Of a DNA stretch of 6,498 bases, positions 1 to 6,498 are shown in pieces; the first letter of the stretch is position 1; each line of letters begins with the position of its first letter. This DNA comes from Streptosporangiaceae bacterium (lineage in GTDB: Bacteria > Actinomycetota > Actinomycetes > Streptosporangiales > Streptosporangiaceae). The translations under genes and the position numbers were made by a program. The DNA is taken from assembly GCA_030041195.1 (NCBI GenBank), contig JASHOI010000224.1:1-6498 (forward strand), read 5' to 3'. The notes under the pieces were generated by a model. The model saw nothing but the letters and a program-made list of their open reading frames with translations, was not told the origin of the DNA and did no database searches.

Positions 1-1
1 C

Positions 2-235
2 GATTGCGCCACGGACCGGCGCGGCCAGGTCGCGCAGCTCACCGACGAGGGCTTCGCCGCGCTGGCCGCGGCAGCCCCGGGCCACGCGGAACAGGTCAGG
101 CGGTCCCTGATCGACCGGCTCACCCCCGAGCAGGTCGGGCAGCTGCGCGAGATCAGCGCCGCGATCCTCGCGGGCGCCGAGCCGCTGCCCGAGGGCAACG
201 ACGGCCCCGACGGCTGCGGGAGCTGCGCGGGCTAG
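2..235 (+). CDS. MarR-family transcriptional regulator, C-terminal part (5' end outside window)
   Basis: Seventy-seven codons of an open frame enter from the left edge. The visible start reads CATDRRGQVAQLTDEGFAAL, which fits the wing of a MarR winged helix: the D-R-R-G turn between the two wing strands, then the L-T-x-x-G-x-x-x-L helix start. A long alpha helix follows (AEQVRRSLIDRLTPEQVGQLREISAAIL), matching the C-terminal dimerisation helices. The DNA-recognition helix would be upstream and is not visible. Proteins of this family are cytoplasmic dimeric repressors or activators that often respond to small aromatic ligands or oxidants. The last residues (DGCGSCAG) carry two cysteines three residues apart, with another cysteine near the start of the visible part. 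Redox sensing is possible but not shown. The stop codon overlaps the stop of the convergent gene. The family call is fairly safe; the ligand and targets are unknown. Confidence 0.8.
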   Translation, partial: DCATDRRGQVAQLTDEGFAALAAAAPGHAEQVRRSLIDRLTPEQVGQLREISAAILAGAEPLPEGNDGPDGCGSCAG

Positions 236-930
236 TCCGGCTGGCCCGCGGCCTCGAGGTCGTCGACGTTGGCGAGGTCGGCGAGGTTGGCGGCCATCCG
301 GTCGGCGATCGCGGCCGGGCCGGGACCCGGAACGTCGCGCAGCCCGGTGACGACGCCGGCCTGGTCGAGCGCGCTCCGGTTCTGGCTCAGCTTGTCCTTG
401 GCCTCGACGTCCGTGATCGTCATCTCGACGCCCACGATCGCCTTCAGCTGGCCGTTGATGTATTCCGGCGGCGCGTCGGTCACCGCCCACGGCCGCGCGG
501 CCGCCGCCTCATGACGCCGGGTGAGCCGGGTGACCAGGTCGCGCAGCCATTCGGCGTCCCGGTGGACGGTGAGGCTGCCGGTGAGATGGACGGCCTGGTA
601 GTTCCAGGTGGGCACCACCCGGCCGTGCCTGGCCTTGCTCTCGTACCAGGACGGCGACACATAGGCCTGCGGCCCGTGCACGATGGCCAGCGCGAGCGAG
701 CCCGGCTGCACCGTCTGCCACTGCGGGTTGGCCAGCGCGACGTGGCCGAGCAGCCTCCCGTGCCCCCCTTCGCCGTCGCCGAAGCCCGGCGGCCGGTCCC
801 AGATCACCGGGAGCAGGGTGGCGACGGGCTTGCTGCCGTCGAACGTCACGAGGTCGGCCGCCCCGGCGGCGTCGACGAACGCGGCGATCTCGGCCAGGTC
901 GGTAACGGCGAAGTGGCGCGGCACGTACAT
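232..930 (-). CDS. FMN-binding negative transcriptional regulator, PaiB family
   Basis: This 232-residue protein has the length and signature blocks of the PaiB family, which has the pyridoxamine-phosphate-oxidase-like split-barrel flavin-binding fold. The N-terminus MYVPRHF is the family's usual start. The central block has VHGPQAYVSPSWY (about residues 84-96) and VVPTWNYQAVHLTG (105-118). The C-terminal part has KLSQNRSALDQAGVV (180-194). The family is named after Bacillus PaiB, reported as a repressor of sporulation and protease genes. Most actinobacterial members are uncharacterised, and binding of FMN or a related cofactor is known better than DNA binding. The start is fixed by the conserved MYxPxxF and leaves about 48 bp to the divergent T-box transcript. 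No strong Shine-Dalgarno is visible just upstream (only a TGGTTGG stretch), so translation may be weak or near-leaderless. Biological role here is not determined. Confidence 0.9.
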   Translation of the reverse strand: MYVPRHFAVTDLAEIAAFVDAAGAADLVTFDGSKPVATLLPVIWDRPPGFGDGEGGHGRLLGHVALANPQWQTVQPGSLALAIVHGPQAYVSPSWYESKARHGRVVPTWNYQAVHLTGSLTVHRDAEWLRDLVTRLTRRHEAAAARPWAVTDAPPEYINGQLKAIVGVEMTITDVEAKDKLSQNRSALDQAGVVTGLRDVPGPGPAAIADRMAANLADLANVDDLEAAGQPD

Positions 931-962
931 GCCAACCAGGCTACGTGCCCGGCGGCCACGGC

Positions 963-976
963 TATCCTGGGTTATA
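963..976. promoter_or_regulatory. Compact divergent promoter region: -10 candidates for the T-box transcript (+) and the PaiB-like gene (-)
   Basis: On the plus strand TATCCT (963-968) fits a TAnnnT -10 box, and would start transcription just before the base of T-box Stem I at 978. On the minus strand TATAAC (read from 976 to 971) matches five of six positions of TATAAT. It would give a leader of roughly 30 nt to the PaiB-like start. No good TTGACA-like -35 element is seen at proper spacing for either. Positions 971-978 form a perfect 8-bp palindrome, GTTATAAC. The assignment rests on position and short matches only. Confidence 0.35.
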
Positions 977-977
977 A

Positions 978-1257
978 CGCGCTGACGGAGACGAGTAGCG
1001 CGGGATCACGCGAGTGAAGAGAGCCGCCGGCAGCTGAGAAGGCGGCCTCGCGCCCCGGACGCGAAGACCCTCCCGAGCGCGGGGAGAAACGGCCGTCGCA
1101 CCCGGCGATGTGCCCAATGCCCCGCCGGCCAGCCCCCGTCAACGGGCCCGAACGAGGCGTCGCCACCATCTGGCGTCGCGAAGGTGCGGTGGCACCGCGA
1201 GTTCCCTTCTCGCCCGCACTCCCAAGGGGTCGTCGAGCACATCCCCGGAGGAGTGCG
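978..1257 (+). promoter_or_regulatory. T-box riboswitch (Asp specifier GAC) controlling the aspartyl-tRNA synthetase gene
   Basis: The leader shows the T-box elements in order. The Stem I base is CGCGCT (978-983) with AGCGCG (1076-1081), followed by CGGAG (986-990) against CTCC-C-G (1070-1075). The specifier loop has AGTA on the 5' side (994-997) and GAA (1063-1065) directly before the specifier GAC (1066-1068), an Asp codon. Above it CGCGAG (1009-1014) pairs with CTCGCG (1047-1052). Then come an AGAGAG AG-bulge (1018-1023) and the apical hairpin GCCGCC/GGCGGC with GCTG (1033-1036) in the loop. Stem III is 1157-1179 (GCG-t-CGCCA, loop CCATC, TGGCG-t-CGC). The T-box follows: A1 GTGCGG (1184-1189) with CCGCAC (1214-1219), the seven-base bulge TGGCACC (1190-1196), and A2 GCGAG/CTCGC. 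TGGC in the bulge complements a 3'-GCCA end, as expected for tRNA-Asp with discriminator G73. Family knowledge: uncharged cognate tRNA stabilises the antiterminator/antisequestrator and turns expression on. One deviation is C, not a purine, after the specifier. Confidence 0.9.
1215..1257 (+). promoter_or_regulatory. Shine-Dalgarno sequestrator of the T-box (translational switch)
   Basis: CGCACTCC (1215-1222) is a perfect complement of GGAGTGCG (1250-1257), which ends at the base before the ATG and includes part of the ribosome binding site GGAGGAG (1247-1253). Inside this hairpin GGGG (1226-1229) can pair with CCCC (1243-1246). The 5' strand reuses bases needed for antisequestrator helix A1 (1214-1219), so the two folds exclude each other. 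No U-run follows a hairpin before the start codon, which argues against a transcription terminator. Inference: charged tRNA leaves the ribosome site hidden, and uncharged tRNA-Asp frees it. Confidence 0.8.
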
Positions 1258-2568
1258 ATGATCTCTCGTGTTCTGGCTGCCGACGTGCCGAAGCACGTCG
1301 GTGAGCAGGTAAGGATCGCCGGCTGGCTGCACCGCCGGCGTGAGCTCAAGTCGGTGACGTTCCTGATCGTGCGGGACCGGTCGGGCCTGGCCCAGGTCGT
1401 TGTCGCGGCCCCGGGTGAAGCCGGCCCGGCCACCGCCCCCGGCCTGCCCGAGGAAACGGTCATCGAGGTCACCGGCCTGGTCACGGCCAGCGCCCAGGCA
1501 CCCGGTGGTGCCGAGCTGACCGGGCCGGTGATCACACCGCTGTCCGGCCCGGCCGCCGCGCCGCCGTTCGACCTGTACCGGCCGGCGATCACCGCGAGCC
1601 TGCCGACGATTCTCGACCACGCGCCGACGACGCTGCGGCATCCGGCGCTGCGGGCCGGGTTCGAGATCGCGGCGGCCAGCGTCGCGGGCTTCCGCGCGAC
1701 ACTGGACGGCCTGTGCTTCACCGAGGTGCACACGCCCAAGATCGTCGAATCGGCCACCGAGTCGGGCGCGAACGTGTTCGGCATCGACTACTTCGGCCAT
1801 CCCGCCTACCTGGCTCAGTCACCGCAGTTCTACAAGCAGGCCATGGTCGGCGTGTTCGAGCGGGTCTTCGAGGTCGGCCCGGTGTTCCGGGCCGAGCCGC
1901 ACGACACCGCGCGGCACCTGGCCGAGTACACCAGCCTCGACGCCGAGTTCGGCTTCATCGCCGACCACCACGACGTGATGGCGGTGCTCCGCGACACCGT
2001 CGCCGGGATGGCGGCGGGGGTGGCATCTCGCGCCGGGGCCGCGCTGGACCTGCTGGGGCTGGCGCTGCCGGTGGTGCCGGAGCAGATCCCCGAGATCCAC
2101 TTCGCCGACGCGCAGCAGCTGATCGCGGCGCACACCTCCCGGGACCCGCGGGGTGAGCCGGACCTCGCGCCCGAGGACGAGCGCTGGCTCGGCGACTGGG
2201 CGGTGCGTGAGCACGGCTCCGATTTCCTGTTCGTGACCGGGTACCCGATGGTCAAGCGCCCCTTCTACACCCATCCCGACCCGGCCAGGCCCGGCTTCTC
2301 CAACAGCTTCGACCTGATCTTCCGCGGGGTCGAGCTGGTCACCGGCGGGCAGCGGCTGCACCGGCACGACGACTACCTGGCCGCGCTGGCCGAACGCGGC
2401 GAGGACCCGCGGTCCTACGCCGGGTACCTGCAGGTCTTCGAGCACGGGATGCCACCGCACGGCGGCTTCGCGATCGGCCTGGAACGCTGGACCGCCCGGC
2501 TGACCGGCGCGGCCAACGTGCGGCAGGTCACACTGTTCCCGCGCGACCTGCACCGGCTCAGCCCGTAG
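1258..2568 (+). CDS. aspS: Aspartyl-tRNA synthetase, archaeal-type, probably non-discriminating (Asp/Asn)
   Basis: A class IIb aminoacyl-tRNA synthetase of 436 residues, the size of archaeal-type AspRS and about 150 residues shorter than the usual bacterial enzyme with its GAD insertion. The N-terminal OB-fold anticodon domain is about residues 1-100 (VRIAGWLHRRREL, FLIVRDRSGLAQVVV). The catalytic domain has motif 1 near 144-165, the aspartate-binding LAQSPQFYKQ (185-194), motif 2 with FRAEPHDTARHLAEYTSLDAE (from 210), GVELVTGGQRLHRHDD (357-372) and motif 3 GLERWTARLTGAANVRQVTLFPRD (407-430). His25 (GWLH) and Pro82 align with the positions that are Trp and Lys in tRNA-Asp-specific archaeal enzymes and His/Pro in non-discriminating ones. 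It may therefore also form Asp-tRNA-Asn for GatCAB amidation. The ATG at 1258 is chosen because GGAGGAG precedes it by four bases and the upstream extension lies inside the T-box. Such a copy often accompanies a standard bacterial AspRS, which is not visible here. Confidence 0.93.
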   Translation: MISRVLAADVPKHVGEQVRIAGWLHRRRELKSVTFLIVRDRSGLAQVVVAAPGEAGPATAPGLPEETVIEVTGLVTASAQAPGGAELTGPVITPLSGPAAAPPFDLYRPAITASLPTILDHAPTTLRHPALRAGFEIAAASVAGFRATLDGLCFTEVHTPKIVESATESGANVFGIDYFGHPAYLAQSPQFYKQAMVGVFERVFEVGPVFRAEPHDTARHLAEYTSLDAEFGFIADHHDVMAVLRDTVAGMAAGVASRAGAALDLLGLALPVVPEQIPEIHFADAQQLIAAHTSRDPRGEPDLAPEDERWLGDWAVREHGSDFLFVTGYPMVKRPFYTHPDPARPGFSNSFDLIFRGVELVTGGQRLHRHDDYLAALAERGEDPRSYAGYLQVFEHGMPPHGGFAIGLERWTARLTGAANVRQVTLFPRDLHRLSP

Positions 2569-2570
2569 CG

Positions 2571-3218
2571 TCAATAGGCCACGGTGATCCGGCGCCGGAA
2601 CGCCTCCCCGTCCTCCAGCTCGTCGGCGAACGCGATCGCGTAGTCGGGGATGCTGATGTGGCTCTGGCCGTCGTCGTCGACGAGCAGCTGGTCCCCGCCG
2701 ACCCGGAATTCGCCGGTTCGCTCCCCCGGGCCGATCACCCCGGCCGGGCTGACGTAGGTCCAGTCGAGGTCATCGATCTCGCGGTAGACCTCCTCGAGCG
2801 TCCTGGCGTGGGCGAGGGCGGTGGGCTTGGCGGCCGGAGGGAAGTCCGGGGTGTCCAGAAGCTGCCGGCCCGGCGCCACCTCGAGGCTGCCGGCCCCGCC
2901 GACCACCACAAGGCGGCGCACCCCTGCCCGGCGCAGCCCCTCGGCCAGGCCGCGGGCGGCGCCGAGCAGGCTGTCCTCCGGGTCCTCGCCATCATCGCCG
3001 CGGCGCGGGCCGGTCGCCGACACGACCGCGTCCTTGCCGGCGGCAAGCCGGGCCACCGAGCCTGGGTCGCTGGCGTCGCCGGTGACGGTCTGCACGACAA
3101 GGCCCTCGACCGGCGCGCCGCTTCTGGTGGCTGCCATGACGGTATGTCCCCGTGCGAGCAGCTCTGCGGTGATTGCCCGGCCGATGGCACCAGAAGCGCC
3201 GAACACGACTATCTTCAT
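2571..3218 (-). CDS. NAD(P)-binding atypical SDR / NADH-flavin reductase-like protein (COG2910, YwnB-like)
   Basis: A 215-residue single-domain Rossmann protein. The N-terminus MKIVVFGASGAIGRAITAELLARGHTVMAATRS has the GxSGxIG dinucleotide-binding loop, followed by an acidic GDASD segment (about residues 49-53). It then has AGKDAVVSATGPRRGDD, VRRLVVVGGAGSLEVAPG and DDLDWTYVSPAGVIGPGERTGEFR. These blocks match the family annotated as putative NADH-flavin reductase or NAD(P)-dependent epimerase-like, related to biliverdin reductase B. No classical SDR Tyr-x3-Lys catalytic pair is evident. Substrate unknown; cytoplasmic. The start is supported by AGGTGA (minus strand, 3228-3223) four bases upstream. 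The stop lies two bases from the end of the convergent synthetase gene, with no terminator between them. The next gene upstream on this strand, another oxidoreductase, ends 100 bp before this start, so co-transcription is possible. Confidence 0.88.
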   Translation of the reverse strand: MKIVVFGASGAIGRAITAELLARGHTVMAATRSGAPVEGLVVQTVTGDASDPGSVARLAAGKDAVVSATGPRRGDDGEDPEDSLLGAARGLAEGLRRAGVRRLVVVGGAGSLEVAPGRQLLDTPDFPPAAKPTALAHARTLEEVYREIDDLDWTYVSPAGVIGPGERTGEFRVGGDQLLVDDDGQSHISIPDYAIAFADELEDGEAFRRRITVAY

Positions 3219-3318
3219 GGTTTCACCTCATCACGCGCTGGGCTCGCTTGCGCCCGGCCACGGTAGGTGCTTCCCGTGACGGACCGGCACAATCTCGATG
3301 CGGGCGCTGCGCTGCTGG

Positions 3319-4299
3319 TCAGCGGGGAATTACCAGAACCTTGCCCACTGCCCCGGCCTCGACCGCGTCCTGAGCGGCGGCGATCTCGTCCAGCGGGAAC
3401 CTGCTGACCGGCAGCTCGGTCAGCGCCCCATCCCTCAGCGCCGCGGTGATGTCCGTCGCGGCCCGGTCGAGCGCCTCTGCCGGTACTCCGTAAACCAGCA
3501 CGAACCTGACGATCACGTTCGCGCCCATGCAGGCCCGGACCGGCAGCACCGGATCGGTCGCCTCGGCGGCGTAACAGGCGATCCGCGCATCCGGCCGCGC
3601 TATCACCGCGAGGTCGAGCTGCAGGTTCGCGCCGAGCGCCACCTCGACCACGCGGTCGACGCCGGCCGCGCCAGCAACGGAGCTGATCTGCTCGGCCGCG
3701 TCCGGCTCCCGGTAGTTCACGACGAGGTCCGCGCCCGCCTTAGCGGCCAGCTCGGCCTTCTCCGGCCCGCTGACGGTGGTGATCACCCGGGCGCCCGCGT
3801 GCTTGGCCAGCTCGATGGCGAAGTGGCCGACCGCGCCCGCACCGCCAGCGACCAGGACGGTCTTCCCCTCGATCGGACCGTCGGCGAACAGGCACCGGTG
3901 CGCGGTCATCGCGGGAACGCCCAGGCTGGCGCCGAGCTCGGCCGAGGCGCCCTCGGGCAGCGGGACCGCCTTCCGTTCCGGGACGACGGTCCACTCGGCG
4001 GCGGTTCCCCACGGGCTGTCGTGGGCCGCCAGCCACAGCCACACCCGCTGGCCGATGCGGGCCGGATCCACACCCCGGCCGACCGCGTCGATCACTCCCG
4101 CGCCGTCCTGGTGCGGGATCTGGAAGCCGTCGATCGGCCGCGCGGTAGCGCCGCTCCGGGACTTCCAGTCGGTGGGATTGATGCCGGAGACGCTCACTTT
4201 GACCCGGACCTCCCCGGGGCCCGGCTCGGGCCGGTCAATCTCCTCCACCCGCAGCACCTCGGAAGCCGCCCCATGGTGGTCATAGGTCGCAGCTTTCAT
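3319..4299 (-). CDS. Zinc-independent MDR oxidoreductase, NADPH:quinone reductase-like
   Basis: A 326-residue medium-chain dehydrogenase/reductase. The N-terminal GroES-like domain (about 1-120) starts MKAATYDHHGAASEVLRVEEIDRP and carries GINPTDWKSRSG and PHQDGAGVIDAVG. The Rossmann domain has ALGASLGVPAMTAHRCL, the nucleotide loop AGGAGAVG (151-158), and GADLVVNYRE. It ends in GKVLVIPR, the usual end of this group. There is no structural-zinc cysteine cluster and no catalytic Cys/His pair at the start of the fold, so it belongs with the quinone oxidoreductase/enoyl-reductase-like branch. It probably reduces quinones or conjugated carbonyl compounds with NADPH in the cytoplasm; the real substrate is unknown. 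The frame extends 45 codons further upstream, but the ATG at 4299 is preferred: MKA starts the conserved domain and GGAGG (minus strand, 4314-4310) sits ten bases before it. The upstream extension is Arg/Pro-rich without domain character. Confidence 0.9.
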   Translation of the reverse strand: MKAATYDHHGAASEVLRVEEIDRPEPGPGEVRVKVSVSGINPTDWKSRSGATARPIDGFQIPHQDGAGVIDAVGRGVDPARIGQRVWLWLAAHDSPWGTAAEWTVVPERKAVPLPEGASAELGASLGVPAMTAHRCLFADGPIEGKTVLVAGGAGAVGHFAIELAKHAGARVITTVSGPEKAELAAKAGADLVVNYREPDAAEQISSVAGAAGVDRVVEVALGANLQLDLAVIARPDARIACYAAEATDPVLPVRACMGANVIVRFVLVYGVPAEALDRAATDITAALRDGALTELPVSRFPLDEIAAAQDAVEAGAVGKVLVIPR

Positions 4300-4566
4300 C
4301 GCAGGAACGCCTCCGGACTCATCGACTGCTGGCCACCGCGATTGTCTCATCGCCCCGGCACGAGGACGCCCTGCACCTCTGCCAGGACGGGTTTCGGCCG
4401 GCCCAAGATTCATGATCAAGGCCGCGGGCAGCACGCCGCGGCCGGCTATCTGGAATAAAGTCTAGACATTTTCGGTACACTCCATTTGGACCACTACGTC
4501 GAACGTGCGCGCCAGCACGCTCGGCCCGATCCAGTCGTCAGTAGCACCACAGAGCACGGGAGGGGC
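4300..4566. other. Intergenic region upstream of the MDR oxidoreductase, with small palindromes
   Basis: No gene is supported here. The stretch around 4451-4500 is clearly richer in A/T than its surroundings. It contains the perfect palindrome GTCTAGAC (4460-4467) and, 14 bp on, TCCATTTGGA (4481-4490), a dyad with one central mismatch. On the minus strand TAGACT (4464-4459) is a possible -10 for the oxidoreductase, but no convincing -35 is seen. A short inverted repeat CGTGC/GCACG (4504-4519) has no T-run and is not a convincing terminator for the GGDEF gene. The palindromes could be an operator; this is inference only. Confidence 0.4.
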
Positions 4567-5910
4567 CTACGAGCTGAAGGGCTGTTCCTCCGAGTTGTCG
4601 GGTAGCACGTAGACCTTGCTCCACCCGGTGCGCTTGGCCTGGCCGAGCGCAGTGTCCGCCGCGCCGATCAGTTCGGCCAGCGCCCTCCTGGACTCGTTCA
4701 GCACGGCGACGCCAATGGAGACGGTGAGGCGGAACACGAAGCCTTCCTGGCTGCCAGACTCAATGGCTATCGGCTCGGCCGCGATATAGTCGCGCAACCG
4801 TTCACTGATCCGTTGCGCTTCCTGCCTACTAGTTTGCGGAAGAAGGATGGCGAACTCTTCACTGCCAAACCGGCCAATCAGGTTATCACCGGGTAGCTGG
4901 TCCCGGAGCATACCCGCTATGTCACGGATAAGTTGATCATGCACAAATTCACCAGCTATATCGTCGACATCACGGAAGTGATCAATATTTACCATTGCCA
5001 GGGCAAGCGGAATGCGGCTGCGCGTCGCCCGGAAAAACTCGGCTTCGGCCTCGCGTTGCCAGGTGCCGGCGTTGAGCAGTCCAGTTTTGGCGTCAATCCG
5101 AGTGTGGGAAACCAGCTGGGCGCGCAGGATCGAACGCTTGCATAGCACCACGGATGGGAGCGCAAGGGCCATGAGTATCGGGTTAATCCTGACCACCAGG
5201 GTGAGCGATACCGCAAGGCTGAGCTCAAGGAGATCGGAAGCGAGCGACTCCCGGTTTCCTACCAGGTCACGCACGCGTGACCCCGGATCGGAGATCTTGA
5301 TCGCAACGACGAGCAGGCCGTCGTTGATGATCCAGCCCAGCACCCCGCATGCGGCGACGCTCGCCGTCCAGGTGAGGGCGTGTGCGCCGCTTTTAGGAAA
5401 GGGTCCCGCGACCGAAGCCGGAATGGAGTGGAATAGTACCGACGCAAAACCGTAACCGAGGCTGTAGGTCGCTCCGCTGAAAACCCGCCGGTAGGCCACT
5501 GCGCCCGGCAGCCGCCAGATCTTGTACGCCGTAAGTGGAACAGGCGCCAGAAAGGCGAACACCGGAGGCAGCGCAACGGCGATGGCCAGCAGCCAAACCG
5601 ACTGGAGGTCCCTGACGAGCTCGCCGTGAGTCTCCCTCAGGCTCCGAGTCGACTCGACCGCGATGATCCCGCACGCGAGCAGCGCCACGCCCAGAAAAAA
5701 CGCCGAGCCGTGCCAGTGGGCGCGCGCGACGGCAACTCCGGCCGCACCAGCTGCGACCGCTATGACGCTTAGGAGGTACCTACGCAGTGGTGCAGAGACA
5801 GTCCAGAGCTGCCACCGCCGCATGCTTCTCGCTGCACGCCACAGACGGCTTGGCAGCACGTAATGCAGGCGGAGGGCAGCCACGGGCTCTCCGAGCGATG
5901 ATTGCAGCAA
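4567..5910 (-). CDS. Membrane-anchored GGDEF-domain protein (putative diguanylate cyclase with variant GSEEF signature)
   Basis: A 447-residue protein with an N-terminal membrane region and a C-terminal GGDEF domain. Hydrophobic segments lie at about residues 44-62, 69-86, 104-125, 147-170, 181-204 and 228-258, so there are probably five to seven helices, a MASE-like sensor. The GGDEF domain spans about 265-438: DAKTGLLNAGTW (273-284), the metal-site region NIDHF (D310), RFGSEEFAILLP (signature GSEEF at 349-353), then LTVSIGVAV and AADTALGQAKRTGWSKV. The family makes cyclic di-GMP from two GTP at the inner membrane face. The second signature glycine is Ser here, and the allosteric RxxD I-site is absent (PGDN at that place), so activity could be altered and feedback control is unlikely. 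The start is uncertain. A TTG at 5910 follows an in-frame TGA two codons upstream; an ATG at 5823 would give 418 residues without losing a membrane helix. Base composition is less GC-rich than its neighbours. Confidence 0.88.
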   Translation of the reverse strand: MLQSSLGEPVAALRLHYVLPSRLWRAARSMRRWQLWTVSAPLRRYLLSVIAVAAGAAGVAVARAHWHGSAFFLGVALLACGIIAVESTRSLRETHGELVRDLQSVWLLAIAVALPPVFAFLAPVPLTAYKIWRLPGAVAYRRVFSGATYSLGYGFASVLFHSIPASVAGPFPKSGAHALTWTASVAACGVLGWIINDGLLVVAIKISDPGSRVRDLVGNRESLASDLLELSLAVSLTLVVRINPILMALALPSVVLCKRSILRAQLVSHTRIDAKTGLLNAGTWQREAEAEFFRATRSRIPLALAMVNIDHFRDVDDIAGEFVHDQLIRDIAGMLRDQLPGDNLIGRFGSEEFAILLPQTSRQEAQRISERLRDYIAAEPIAIESGSQEGFVFRLTVSIGVAVLNESRRALAELIGAADTALGQAKRTGWSKVYVLPDNSEEQPFSS

Positions 5911-5939
5911 CTTTCATCGTGTACGGGCAGTAATGTCAC

Positions 5940-5969
5940 ATCGTCACAGAGAGCTAGCCCCACTGTCAA
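5940..5969 (-). promoter_or_regulatory. Probable promoter of the GGDEF gene
   Basis: Read on the minus strand, TTGACA (5969-5964) is a perfect -35 consensus. Eighteen bases downstream GACGAT (5945-5940) shares three of six positions with TATAAT, including A2 and T6. Transcription would start near 5933, about 20 bases before the TTG start. The -35 box falls in the loop of the inverted repeat listed separately. Confidence 0.45.
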
Positions 5970-5980
5970 GGTGGGCTAGC
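5953..5980. promoter_or_regulatory. 28-bp inverted repeat between the GGDEF gene and the mini-ORF array (operator or hairpin)
   Basis: GCTAGCCC (5953-5960) and GGGCTAGC (5973-5980) are perfect reverse complements. AC (5962-5963) and GT (5971-5972) extend the stem past one bulged C, leaving the loop TGTCAAG. As DNA it is a dyad centred on the -35 box of the GGDEF gene and could be a repressor site. As RNA on the rightward strand it would be a stable hairpin just 5' of the array. No T-run follows, so it is not an intrinsic terminator for rightward transcription. Confidence 0.6.
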
Positions 5981-6019
5981 ACGCCACCCACGACCGCCCC
6001 CAGACACGAAAGGAAGGCC

Positions 6020-6040
6020 ATGCGCGCCGACTGGAACTGA
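6020..6040 (+). CDS. Mini-ORF unit 1, hexapeptide MRADWN
   Basis: A complete frame of six codons and TGA: Met-Arg-Ala-Asp-Trp-Asn. GAAAGGAAG (6008-6016) lies three bases upstream of the ATG; AGGA is five bases from it, within the working range for initiation. The peptide is far too short to leave the ribosome tunnel before termination and has no signal sequence. It is the first unit after the inverted repeat. Translation is inferred from the repeated pattern, not proven; the alternative is that the core acts as a nucleic-acid motif. Confidence 0.6.
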   Translation: MRADWN

Positions 6041-6084
6041 CCCCTGCCACCGACCAGAACCCCCACCACCGAAAGGAAGCCTCC

Positions 6085-6105
6085 GTGCGCGCCGACTGGA
6101 ACTGA
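6085..6105 (+). CDS. Mini-ORF unit 2, GTG start, hexapeptide MRADWN
   Basis: This unit differs from the first in its start codon: ATG is replaced by GTG, the one common substitution that keeps initiation in actinobacteria. The other codons and the TGA are identical. The ribosome site GAAAGGAAG (6071-6079) is five bases upstream with spacer CCTCC. It lies in a different frame from unit 1 (offset 65 bp). The A-to-G change at exactly this base is the best single hint that the frame, not only the DNA motif, is under selection. Confidence 0.6.
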   Translation: MRADWN

Positions 6106-6148
6106 CCCCCGCGACCCACCAGAACCCCACCACCGAAAGGAAGGCCCC

Positions 6149-6169
6149 ATGCGCGCCGACTGGAACTGA
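6149..6169 (+). CDS. Mini-ORF unit 3, hexapeptide MRADWN
   Basis: ATG start, TGA stop, GAAAGGAAG at 6135-6143 with a five-base spacer GCCCC. The linker after it (6170-6198) is the most divergent of the array, carrying a GGG and the segment GCCATC. It marks the junction between the two 191-bp trimers. Confidence 0.6.
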   Translation: MRADWN

Positions 6170-6210
6170 CCCCGGGCACCGCCATCACCCCACCGACCGA
6201 AAGGAAGGCC

Positions 6211-6231
6211 ATGCGCGCCGACTGGAACTGA
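6211..6231 (+). CDS. Mini-ORF unit 4, hexapeptide MRADWN
   Basis: First unit of the second trimer. As in unit 1, the spacer between GAAAGGAAG (6199-6207) and ATG is GCC, and the linker after TGA (6232-6261) differs from linker 1 at only two of 30 positions. Confidence 0.6.
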   Translation: MRADWN

Positions 6232-6275
6232 CCCCTGCCACCCACCAGAACCCCCACTACCGAAAGGAAGTCTCC

Positions 6276-6296
6276 ATGCGCGCCGACTGGAACTGA
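6276..6296 (+). CDS. Mini-ORF unit 5, hexapeptide MRADWN
   Basis: Counterpart of unit 2: the spacer TCTCC after GAAAGGAAG (6262-6270) differs from CCTCC by one base, and the start here is ATG rather than GTG. The stop is TGA. Confidence 0.6.
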   Translation: MRADWN

Positions 6297-6339
6297 CCCC
6301 CGCCACCGACACCACCCCACCCACCGAAAGGAAGCCCCC

Positions 6340-6360
6340 ATGCGCGCCGACTGGAACTAG
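6340..6360 (+). CDS. Mini-ORF unit 6, TAG stop, hexapeptide MRADWN
   Basis: Last unit; GAAAGGAAG at 6326-6334, spacer CCCCC. Repeat similarity ends after AACT, where TGACCCC of the other units is replaced by TAGCTGA. A stop codon still follows directly; with T fixed, three of sixteen random dinucleotides would give one, so this is only mild evidence of selection. The frame after the TAG stays open for 46 codons to the window edge. Confidence 0.6.
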   Translation: MRADWN

Positions 6361-6498
6361 CTGAGATCGCAGACGGAAGGACTGCTCAGATCACTGAAGA
6401 GCAACGGCCAGTCCCCCATGCTGGCCGGGCTGGGATCGGTCGGCGTGGTCCATCGCGGCCCACGCCGCACCATCCGCCACTATCTCCATGGCAGTGTA
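6361..6498. other. Unassigned right-edge region downstream of the array
   Basis: Composition changes from the C-rich array to ordinary mixed sequence. It can fold: GGACTG (6379-6384) with CAGTCC (6409-6414), and inside it GCTC (6384-6387) with GAGC (6399-6402), the two stems sharing one base. Two partial frames compete. On the plus strand a frame open from 6361 contains ATG at 6418 without a ribosome site. On the minus strand a frame enters from the right edge and stops at 6391-6393, its last residues reading DHADRSQPGQHGGLAVALQ. Both have about 70 percent G/C at third positions and neither resembles a family I know, so I make no gene call. Confidence 0.4.

Follow-up and report, generated by a model that had tools for sequence, protein, structure and literature searches.

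The right end of a high-G+C window (the whole stretch of DNA analysed here, 6,498 bases) carries a tandem array, which raises the question of what a series of minimal reading frames, each with its own ribosome-binding site, might be for. Positions 6008-6360 of the plus strand comprise six tandem units, in each of which the Shine-Dalgarno (SD) block GAAAGGA is followed after 5 or 7 nt by a start codon, the codons CGC GCC GAC TGG AAC and a stop codon, and all six encode the peptide MRADWN. Unit 1 lies at 6008..6040 (SD 6008-6014, ATG 6020), unit 2 at 6071..6105 (SD 6071-6077, GTG 6085), unit 3 at 6135..6169 (SD 6135-6141, ATG 6149), unit 4 at 6199..6231 (SD 6199-6205, ATG 6211) and unit 5 at 6262..6296 (SD 6262-6268, ATG 6276), each ending in TGA, and unit 6 at 6326..6360 (SD 6326-6332, ATG 6340) ends in TAG; here the repeat stops at AACT and the remainder of the stop codon comes from unique sequence. 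The initial annotation had placed six units of SD, start, RADWN and stop in this interval, with five ATG and one GTG starts, five TGA and one TAG stops and units out of frame with each other, and every one of these features is present; its SD spacing of 3 or 5 nt holds when the SD is taken as GAAAGGAAG and equals 5 or 7 nt when counted from GAAAGGA. The start codons of units 1-6 fall at positions 2, 1, 2, 1, 0 and 1 modulo 3, so that all three frames are used and joining units yields no longer protein. Start codons are 62-65 nt apart and SD blocks 63-64 nt apart, and units 1-3 and 4-6 are related by a block duplication (92% identity over 161 nt). The linkers between units are rich in C and A (86 C, 27 A, 15 G and 4 T for units 2-6) and, at 67-93% likeness among units 2-6, differ from the mutually unrelated spacers of a CRISPR-like array.

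Conservation, rarity and folding of the array

Changes among the units are confined almost entirely to the linkers. Units 2-6 show at least 13 changes in the 28 linker columns, none in the 11 columns of the SD block and none in the 15 columns of codons 2-6, and adding unit 1, whose upstream flank is repeat-like only in part, brings these counts to 20, 1 and 0. Codons 2-6 are thus identical in all six units, and start and stop codons vary solely to other working codons. From the linker rate of units 2-6, approximately 5.7 non-synonymous changes would be predicted and none was seen (P(0)=0.003, an estimate that treats columns as independent though units 1-3 and 4-6 form a block duplication), and this absence of amino-acid change is telling. 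The missing synonymous changes are uninformative, as just approximately 1.2 were expected (P(0)=0.29, with the same treatment of columns), and the argument of the initial annotation, which took their absence as leaving a protein-binding array open, therefore carries no weight either way.

The array far exceeds chance expectation: its two-unit pattern occurs five times in the window, and none of 200 dinucleotide shuffles contained it. A finder for mini-ORFs of 5-9 amino acids with an SD of at least 5 nt returned six in the array, compared with 25 in other actinobacterial DNA totalling 161,938 strand-bases (both strands of seven actinobacterial loci, together with positions 1-6000 of the window), and none of these 25 ended in Asn or had an SD of at least 7 nt. 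Gene callers are likely to overlook such mini-genes because each is only 21 nt long.

The array RNA is weakly folded, with 98 of 100 dinucleotide shuffles folding at least as well (z +1.87), and this prediction suits open initiation sites. Predicted pairing at the SD-start sites of units 1-6 (0.41, 0.39, 0.52, 0.39, 0.56 and 0.37) falls under the array mean of 0.40 in just three units, however, which counts against the open-site view. The 2-nt variation of the SD-start gap should be tolerable for initiation. Of what was proposed initially, the minimal translation cassette and the dosage-amplified peptide fit best, and the initial interpretation is supported in part.

Comparison with microcin C precursor genes

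The closest described counterpart of a single unit is mccA of Escherichia coli, a mini-gene for the microcin C (McC) heptapeptide MRTGNAN; in the published account of these systems, an initial Met and a C-terminal Asn are universally conserved in precursors of the major MccB clade, a strong SD ahead of the MccA ORF is described as a general feature, and most MccA precursors have 7 residues, a few 8 and those of a minor clade 17-56 (PMC6495379). All six units of the array begin with an initiator Met, end in Asn and carry GAAAGGA 5 or 7 nt 5' of the start, and their six residues fall one short of the usual length, which the same paper gives as usual and not as universal. Six codons lie inside the range of 2-8 for which that paper considers reiterative translation possible, and E. 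coli mccA was translated reiteratively in vitro (PMC6495379). The array shares with E. coli mccA and the other MccA genes of 7-8 residues a very short ORF, a strong SD and a Met...Asn-stop frame. In the E. coli mcc operon, mccA is separated from mccB by a terminator hairpin (PMC6495379), and a predicted hairpin, whose significance varies with the stretch folded, also follows the array. A basic second residue, as in MRADWN, is also found in several MccA precursors. In contrast to E. coli mccA, which is single and encodes seven residues, the array has six copies of a six-residue ORF with Ala at position 3, and it lies in an actinomycete, with no mccB visible.

More than one McC-like precursor gene per locus is likewise described for the mcc cluster of H. 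minutum (MccA1 and MccA2, with two MccB), although its precursors of 36 and 46 amino acids are dissimilar and each has its own enzyme, whereas the array consists of tandem copies of one peptide (PMC7157772). The mcc cluster of Nocardia vaccinii is also actinobacterial and makes a peptide-nucleotide, but differs in its 21-amino-acid precursor and its bifunctional cytidylating MccB (PMC9239234). By this comparison a single unit has the anatomy of mccA, including the obligatory C-terminal Asn, and the six-copy tandem form appears to be what is new. The initial view that no such element had been described is accordingly too broad for the single unit, which matches mccA as published (PMC6495379), and stands for the tandem form, since we found no description of tandem mccA, and no paper containing the string MRADWN, in the open-licence literature searched.

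We also scanned 11 loci for mini-ORFs of 5-9 amino acids with an SD of at least 5 nt in the 400 nt upstream of a ThiF gene start. One distinct N-ending mini-ORF was present at five of the seven loci where an annotated MFS gene follows ThiF, compared with none of the four other ThiF loci (L010, L011, L024 and L025, the last with just 191 nt upstream). The peptides were MRTGNAN in E. coli (L013, where the scan took the beginning of the solved MccB, and not of the longer annotated gene, as the ThiF start), MKLSYRN in H. pylori (L017, where the rule picked up a second start inside this ORF as well), MRGKTLN in both B. coriaceae and B. nietonii (L018 and L023) and MLGKNFN on a Borreliella garinii plasmid (L022, where the ThiF start was that of a hypothetical ORF ahead of a short ThiF). 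Four of these five peptides (two being identical) have Arg or Lys in second position, as does MRADWN. Each positive locus has a single copy, and six copies are without precedent among the loci scanned. Under a looser rule, further N-ending ORFs come up whose lengths differ or whose SDs are weaker. Of the two remaining ThiF and MFS loci without a match to the rule, L016 has an IS element close upstream and L019, on a Pantoea piersonii plasmid, has MATKN with an SD of just 4 nt. The gap between mini-ORF and mccB measures 51-84 nt and holds a hairpin at all four loci folded, with z of -3.4 (L013), -2.56 (L017), -7.2 (L018) and -0.91 (L019, a candidate).

Two of these loci merit description in their own right. 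The pentapeptide mini-ORF MATKN of the Pantoea piersonii plasmid is followed directly by a hairpin and then by a ThiF and MFS gene pair (L019:2171-2239), and from this arrangement it is a candidate McC precursor of 5 amino acids. On the Borreliella garinii plasmid (L022:1322-3663), MLGKNFN, the hypothetical ORF, the short ThiF and an MFS gene stand in that order, and the hypothetical ORF and short ThiF may be one ThiF frame annotated in two pieces.

No N-ending mini-ORF was found in the scanned upstream stretches of the actinobacterial ThiF loci L009-L012 (plasmids or a misfiled chromosome), which by eye look like other RiPP-type ThiF, or on the plus strand of L020, the single Bacillota match among 398 genomes. 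The array pattern, which demanded TGCG.......TGGAA twice and so would miss arrays that differ in peptide or codons, matched four stretches in GTDB genomes (two in Lachnospiraceae and one each in Paenibacillus and an Oscillospiraceae MAG), which we regard as chance because none contains repeated start-RxDWN-stop units. The array had no match in viral contigs, nor by blastn in plasmids or phages, and an MccB-type query of viral contigs gave 43 pattern stretches and no relative.

Flanking DNA, neighbouring genes and host

An inverted repeat, GCTAGCCC...GGGCTAGC (5953..5980, plus strand), lies directly 5' of the array, between it and a divergent diguanylate cyclase (GGDEF) gene (4567..5910, minus strand; Pfam PF00990, E 8.7e-29), and may serve as an operator or form a hairpin at the 5' end of the transcript; for the stretch 5940-6007 the fold has z -2.14, which 9 of 300 shuffles equalled or bettered. 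Past the array, the folds contain an 8-bp hairpin, CGGCCAGT-N7-GCTGGCCG (6405..6427, plus strand), 44 nt after the last stop codon, and a second strong hairpin, CGGCGTGG...CCCACGCCG (6441..6467, plus strand). The significance of this structure varies with the stretch folded, with z of -2.62 for 6355-6498 (5 of 200 shuffles as good), -1.83 for 6361-6498 (11 of 300) and -0.97 for 6361-6440 alone (47 of 300). A search of 5850-6498 for promoter and terminator consensus sequences found none.

The window stops 138 nt past the array, and one frame of 46 amino acids is open to its edge. This frame had no match to Pfam at E<=1 nor to NCBIfam at E<=10, and all its blastp matches had E of at least 1.7. 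Scored against an HMM of 71 MccB N-termini, the frame pieces of the visible 138 nt gave -3.1 to -1.8 bits and no match; since shuffles reach 6.6 bits (median -2.2, 90th percentile -0.9; 1,487 of 2,000 shuffles scored), these scores lend no support to this frame as the start of mccB. A plasmid tblastn search with the downstream fragment returned one match (E=5), which was discarded as chance because it is antisense to a longer ORF that by eye is methyltransferase-like, and the opposite-strand frame had no NCBIfam or plasmid match. If present, mccB therefore begins farther from the array than the 51-84 nt of the four folded control loci, which is the main weakness of the microcin C reading. No exporter, of the MFS or another type, was found among the seven window translations scanned with Pfam, the region to the right of the array ending at 138 nt, and the window likewise shows no immunity gene.

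Upstream of the array, the window encodes the divergent GGDEF protein, an ADH, an NAD(P)-binding protein and a non-discriminating aspartyl-tRNA synthetase (AspRS; 1258-2568, plus strand), the last preceded by a T-box-like leader (973-1220, plus strand; Rfam 56.6 bits, below the gathering score of 93). When its specifier is placed by reading the Rfam alignment, this leader seems to have GAC (Asp) there. McC targets AspRS (PMC9239234), which makes a dedicated immunity gene a tempting reading of the gene with its leader; this reading is not supported, as both occur elsewhere without an N-ending mini-ORF. Relatives of this gene (aspS2) are found at 70% identity in Nonomuraea (L014) and in two pieces, at 66 and 72%, in Streptantibioticus (L015); the same leader motif precedes both, where Rfam at its gathering threshold is silent, and the mini-ORF finder detected no N-ending mini-ORF at either locus. 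A search with the five other window proteins gave only weak relatives at these loci (39% over 75 amino acids for the first ORF of the window in L014; 33% over 111 amino acids for the NAD-binding protein in L015). The AspRS and its leader are not counted as part of the system because they are present in Nonomuraea and Streptantibioticus without the mini-ORF, where the relatives of the other proteins are at most weak. The G+C content is 0.60-0.65 across 4501-6000 compared with 0.68-0.75 leftward, and the GGDEF gene, together with the region 5' of the array, may have been imported recently.

The AspRS of the window shares 93% identity with a JGI cluster and 85% with a Streptosporangiaceae MAG, the only named organism among the best 120 of 7,975 relatives (from 8,000 candidates scored). 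Nocardiopsis shares the order Streptosporangiales with Streptosporangiaceae, and putative mcc-like clusters have been reported in Nocardiopsis, Pseudomonas and Thermobifida (PMC7157772). The MccB of Salinactinospora is 38% identical to that of E. coli, and a profile including it matches proteins of Nocardiopsis, Thermobifida halotolerans and Murinocardiopsis (among the best 120 of 333); judged by these likenesses, the actinobacterial proteins probably belong to the clade of the E. coli enzyme.

Probable function, alternative readings and the possible meaning of six copies

On balance, we think it more probable than not that the array is a set of six tandem hexapeptide precursor mini-genes of a microcin-C-like peptide-nucleotide. 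The translation, peptide modification, product, target and regulation that we infer would run as follows. Each unit would be separately translated into fMet-Arg-Ala-Asp-Trp-Asn, and the C-terminal Asn of this peptide would receive a nucleotide from a ThiF-type MccB whose gene would lie to the right of the window. The modified peptide would leave the cell through an exporter, and uptake and trimming would turn it into an aspartyl-nucleotide that inhibits AspRS. With six copies, each of a length at which a single ribosome could make repeated rounds, the supply of precursor relative to enzyme would increase, and the hairpin past the array may curb read-through into mccB still more. Tentatively, and with clearly lower confidence, the array could instead be a novel type of translated element in which six hexapeptide cistrons, each with its own initiation, serve a purpose other than microcin C, for example the supply in bulk of an unmodified hexapeptide effector through ribosome recycling or a ribosome-occupancy ladder metering a downstream gene.

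It is unlikely that MRADWN belongs to a different short-peptide system, as a signal, ligand or precursor produced in six-fold dose and lacking microcin-C-type modification. The anatomy does suggest translation of a fixed peptide, and the visible 138 nt contain no MccB-like N-terminus; against this, the C-terminal Asn and strong SD match the MccA literature, Asn ends none of the 25 chance mini-ORFs, and we know of no ribosomal signal peptide of six amino acids made without a longer precursor.

A regulatory array in which ribosome loading controls downstream termination or translation and the peptide is irrelevant, including a sink for ribosomes or peptidyl-tRNA, seems to us improbable, and is compatible with the microcin-C-like reading. 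Translational attenuators and leader mini-ORFs combine a short ORF and an SD ahead of structured RNA, and the RNA downstream of the array is strongly structured (z -2.62). Attenuators usually carry a run of codons for one amino acid, however, and the array differs from them in its six identical copies, its invariant peptide and its codons (CGC, GCC, GAC, TGG and AAC), which form no such run. Regulation by ribosome loading would also need no fixed peptide or last codon, yet all 15 codon columns are invariant and the linkers variable. That such a mini-gene can exert control is evident from E. coli, where a ribosome that binds mccA brings about termination ahead of mccB (PMC6495379), so that the leader array proposed in the initial annotation need not exclude its dosage-amplified peptide.

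More doubtful still is a repeat bound by a protein as DNA or RNA (iteron-like, or a sponge RNA), with the ORF incidental. The even spacing of the SD blocks, close to six helical turns, would suit such binding, and the lack of synonymous change agrees with it, though uninformatively. The distance from SD to core nevertheless varies by 2 nt, start and stop codons change only to working codons, and a stop is kept in unit 6, where the repeat ends. Rfam at E<=1 gave no match in the array (its matches being the T-box at 973-1220 and a weak snoR9 at 1435-1476, E 0.64), blastn found no plasmid or phage relative, and no rep gene is present among the window translations, which end to the right of the array at 138 nt. 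A local tandem duplication without function is very improbable, since the changes avoid the SD and the ORF, despite the block duplication of units 1-3 and 4-6 and the lack of relatives in the GTDB genomes, viral contigs, plasmids and phages searched.

Microcin C producers need the precursor in large excess over the enzyme, and in E. coli a ribosome bound to mccA induces termination ahead of mccB (PMC6495379). If the microcin-C-like reading is true, a six-fold mccA would be a different answer to this problem of precursor supply than the ribosome-induced termination of E. coli, and peptide-nucleotides built on a hexapeptide would occur in an actinomycete, probably one of the Streptosporangiaceae. 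The array would also provide a searchable signature for such systems, namely tandem units of an SD and a short ORF ending in Asn.
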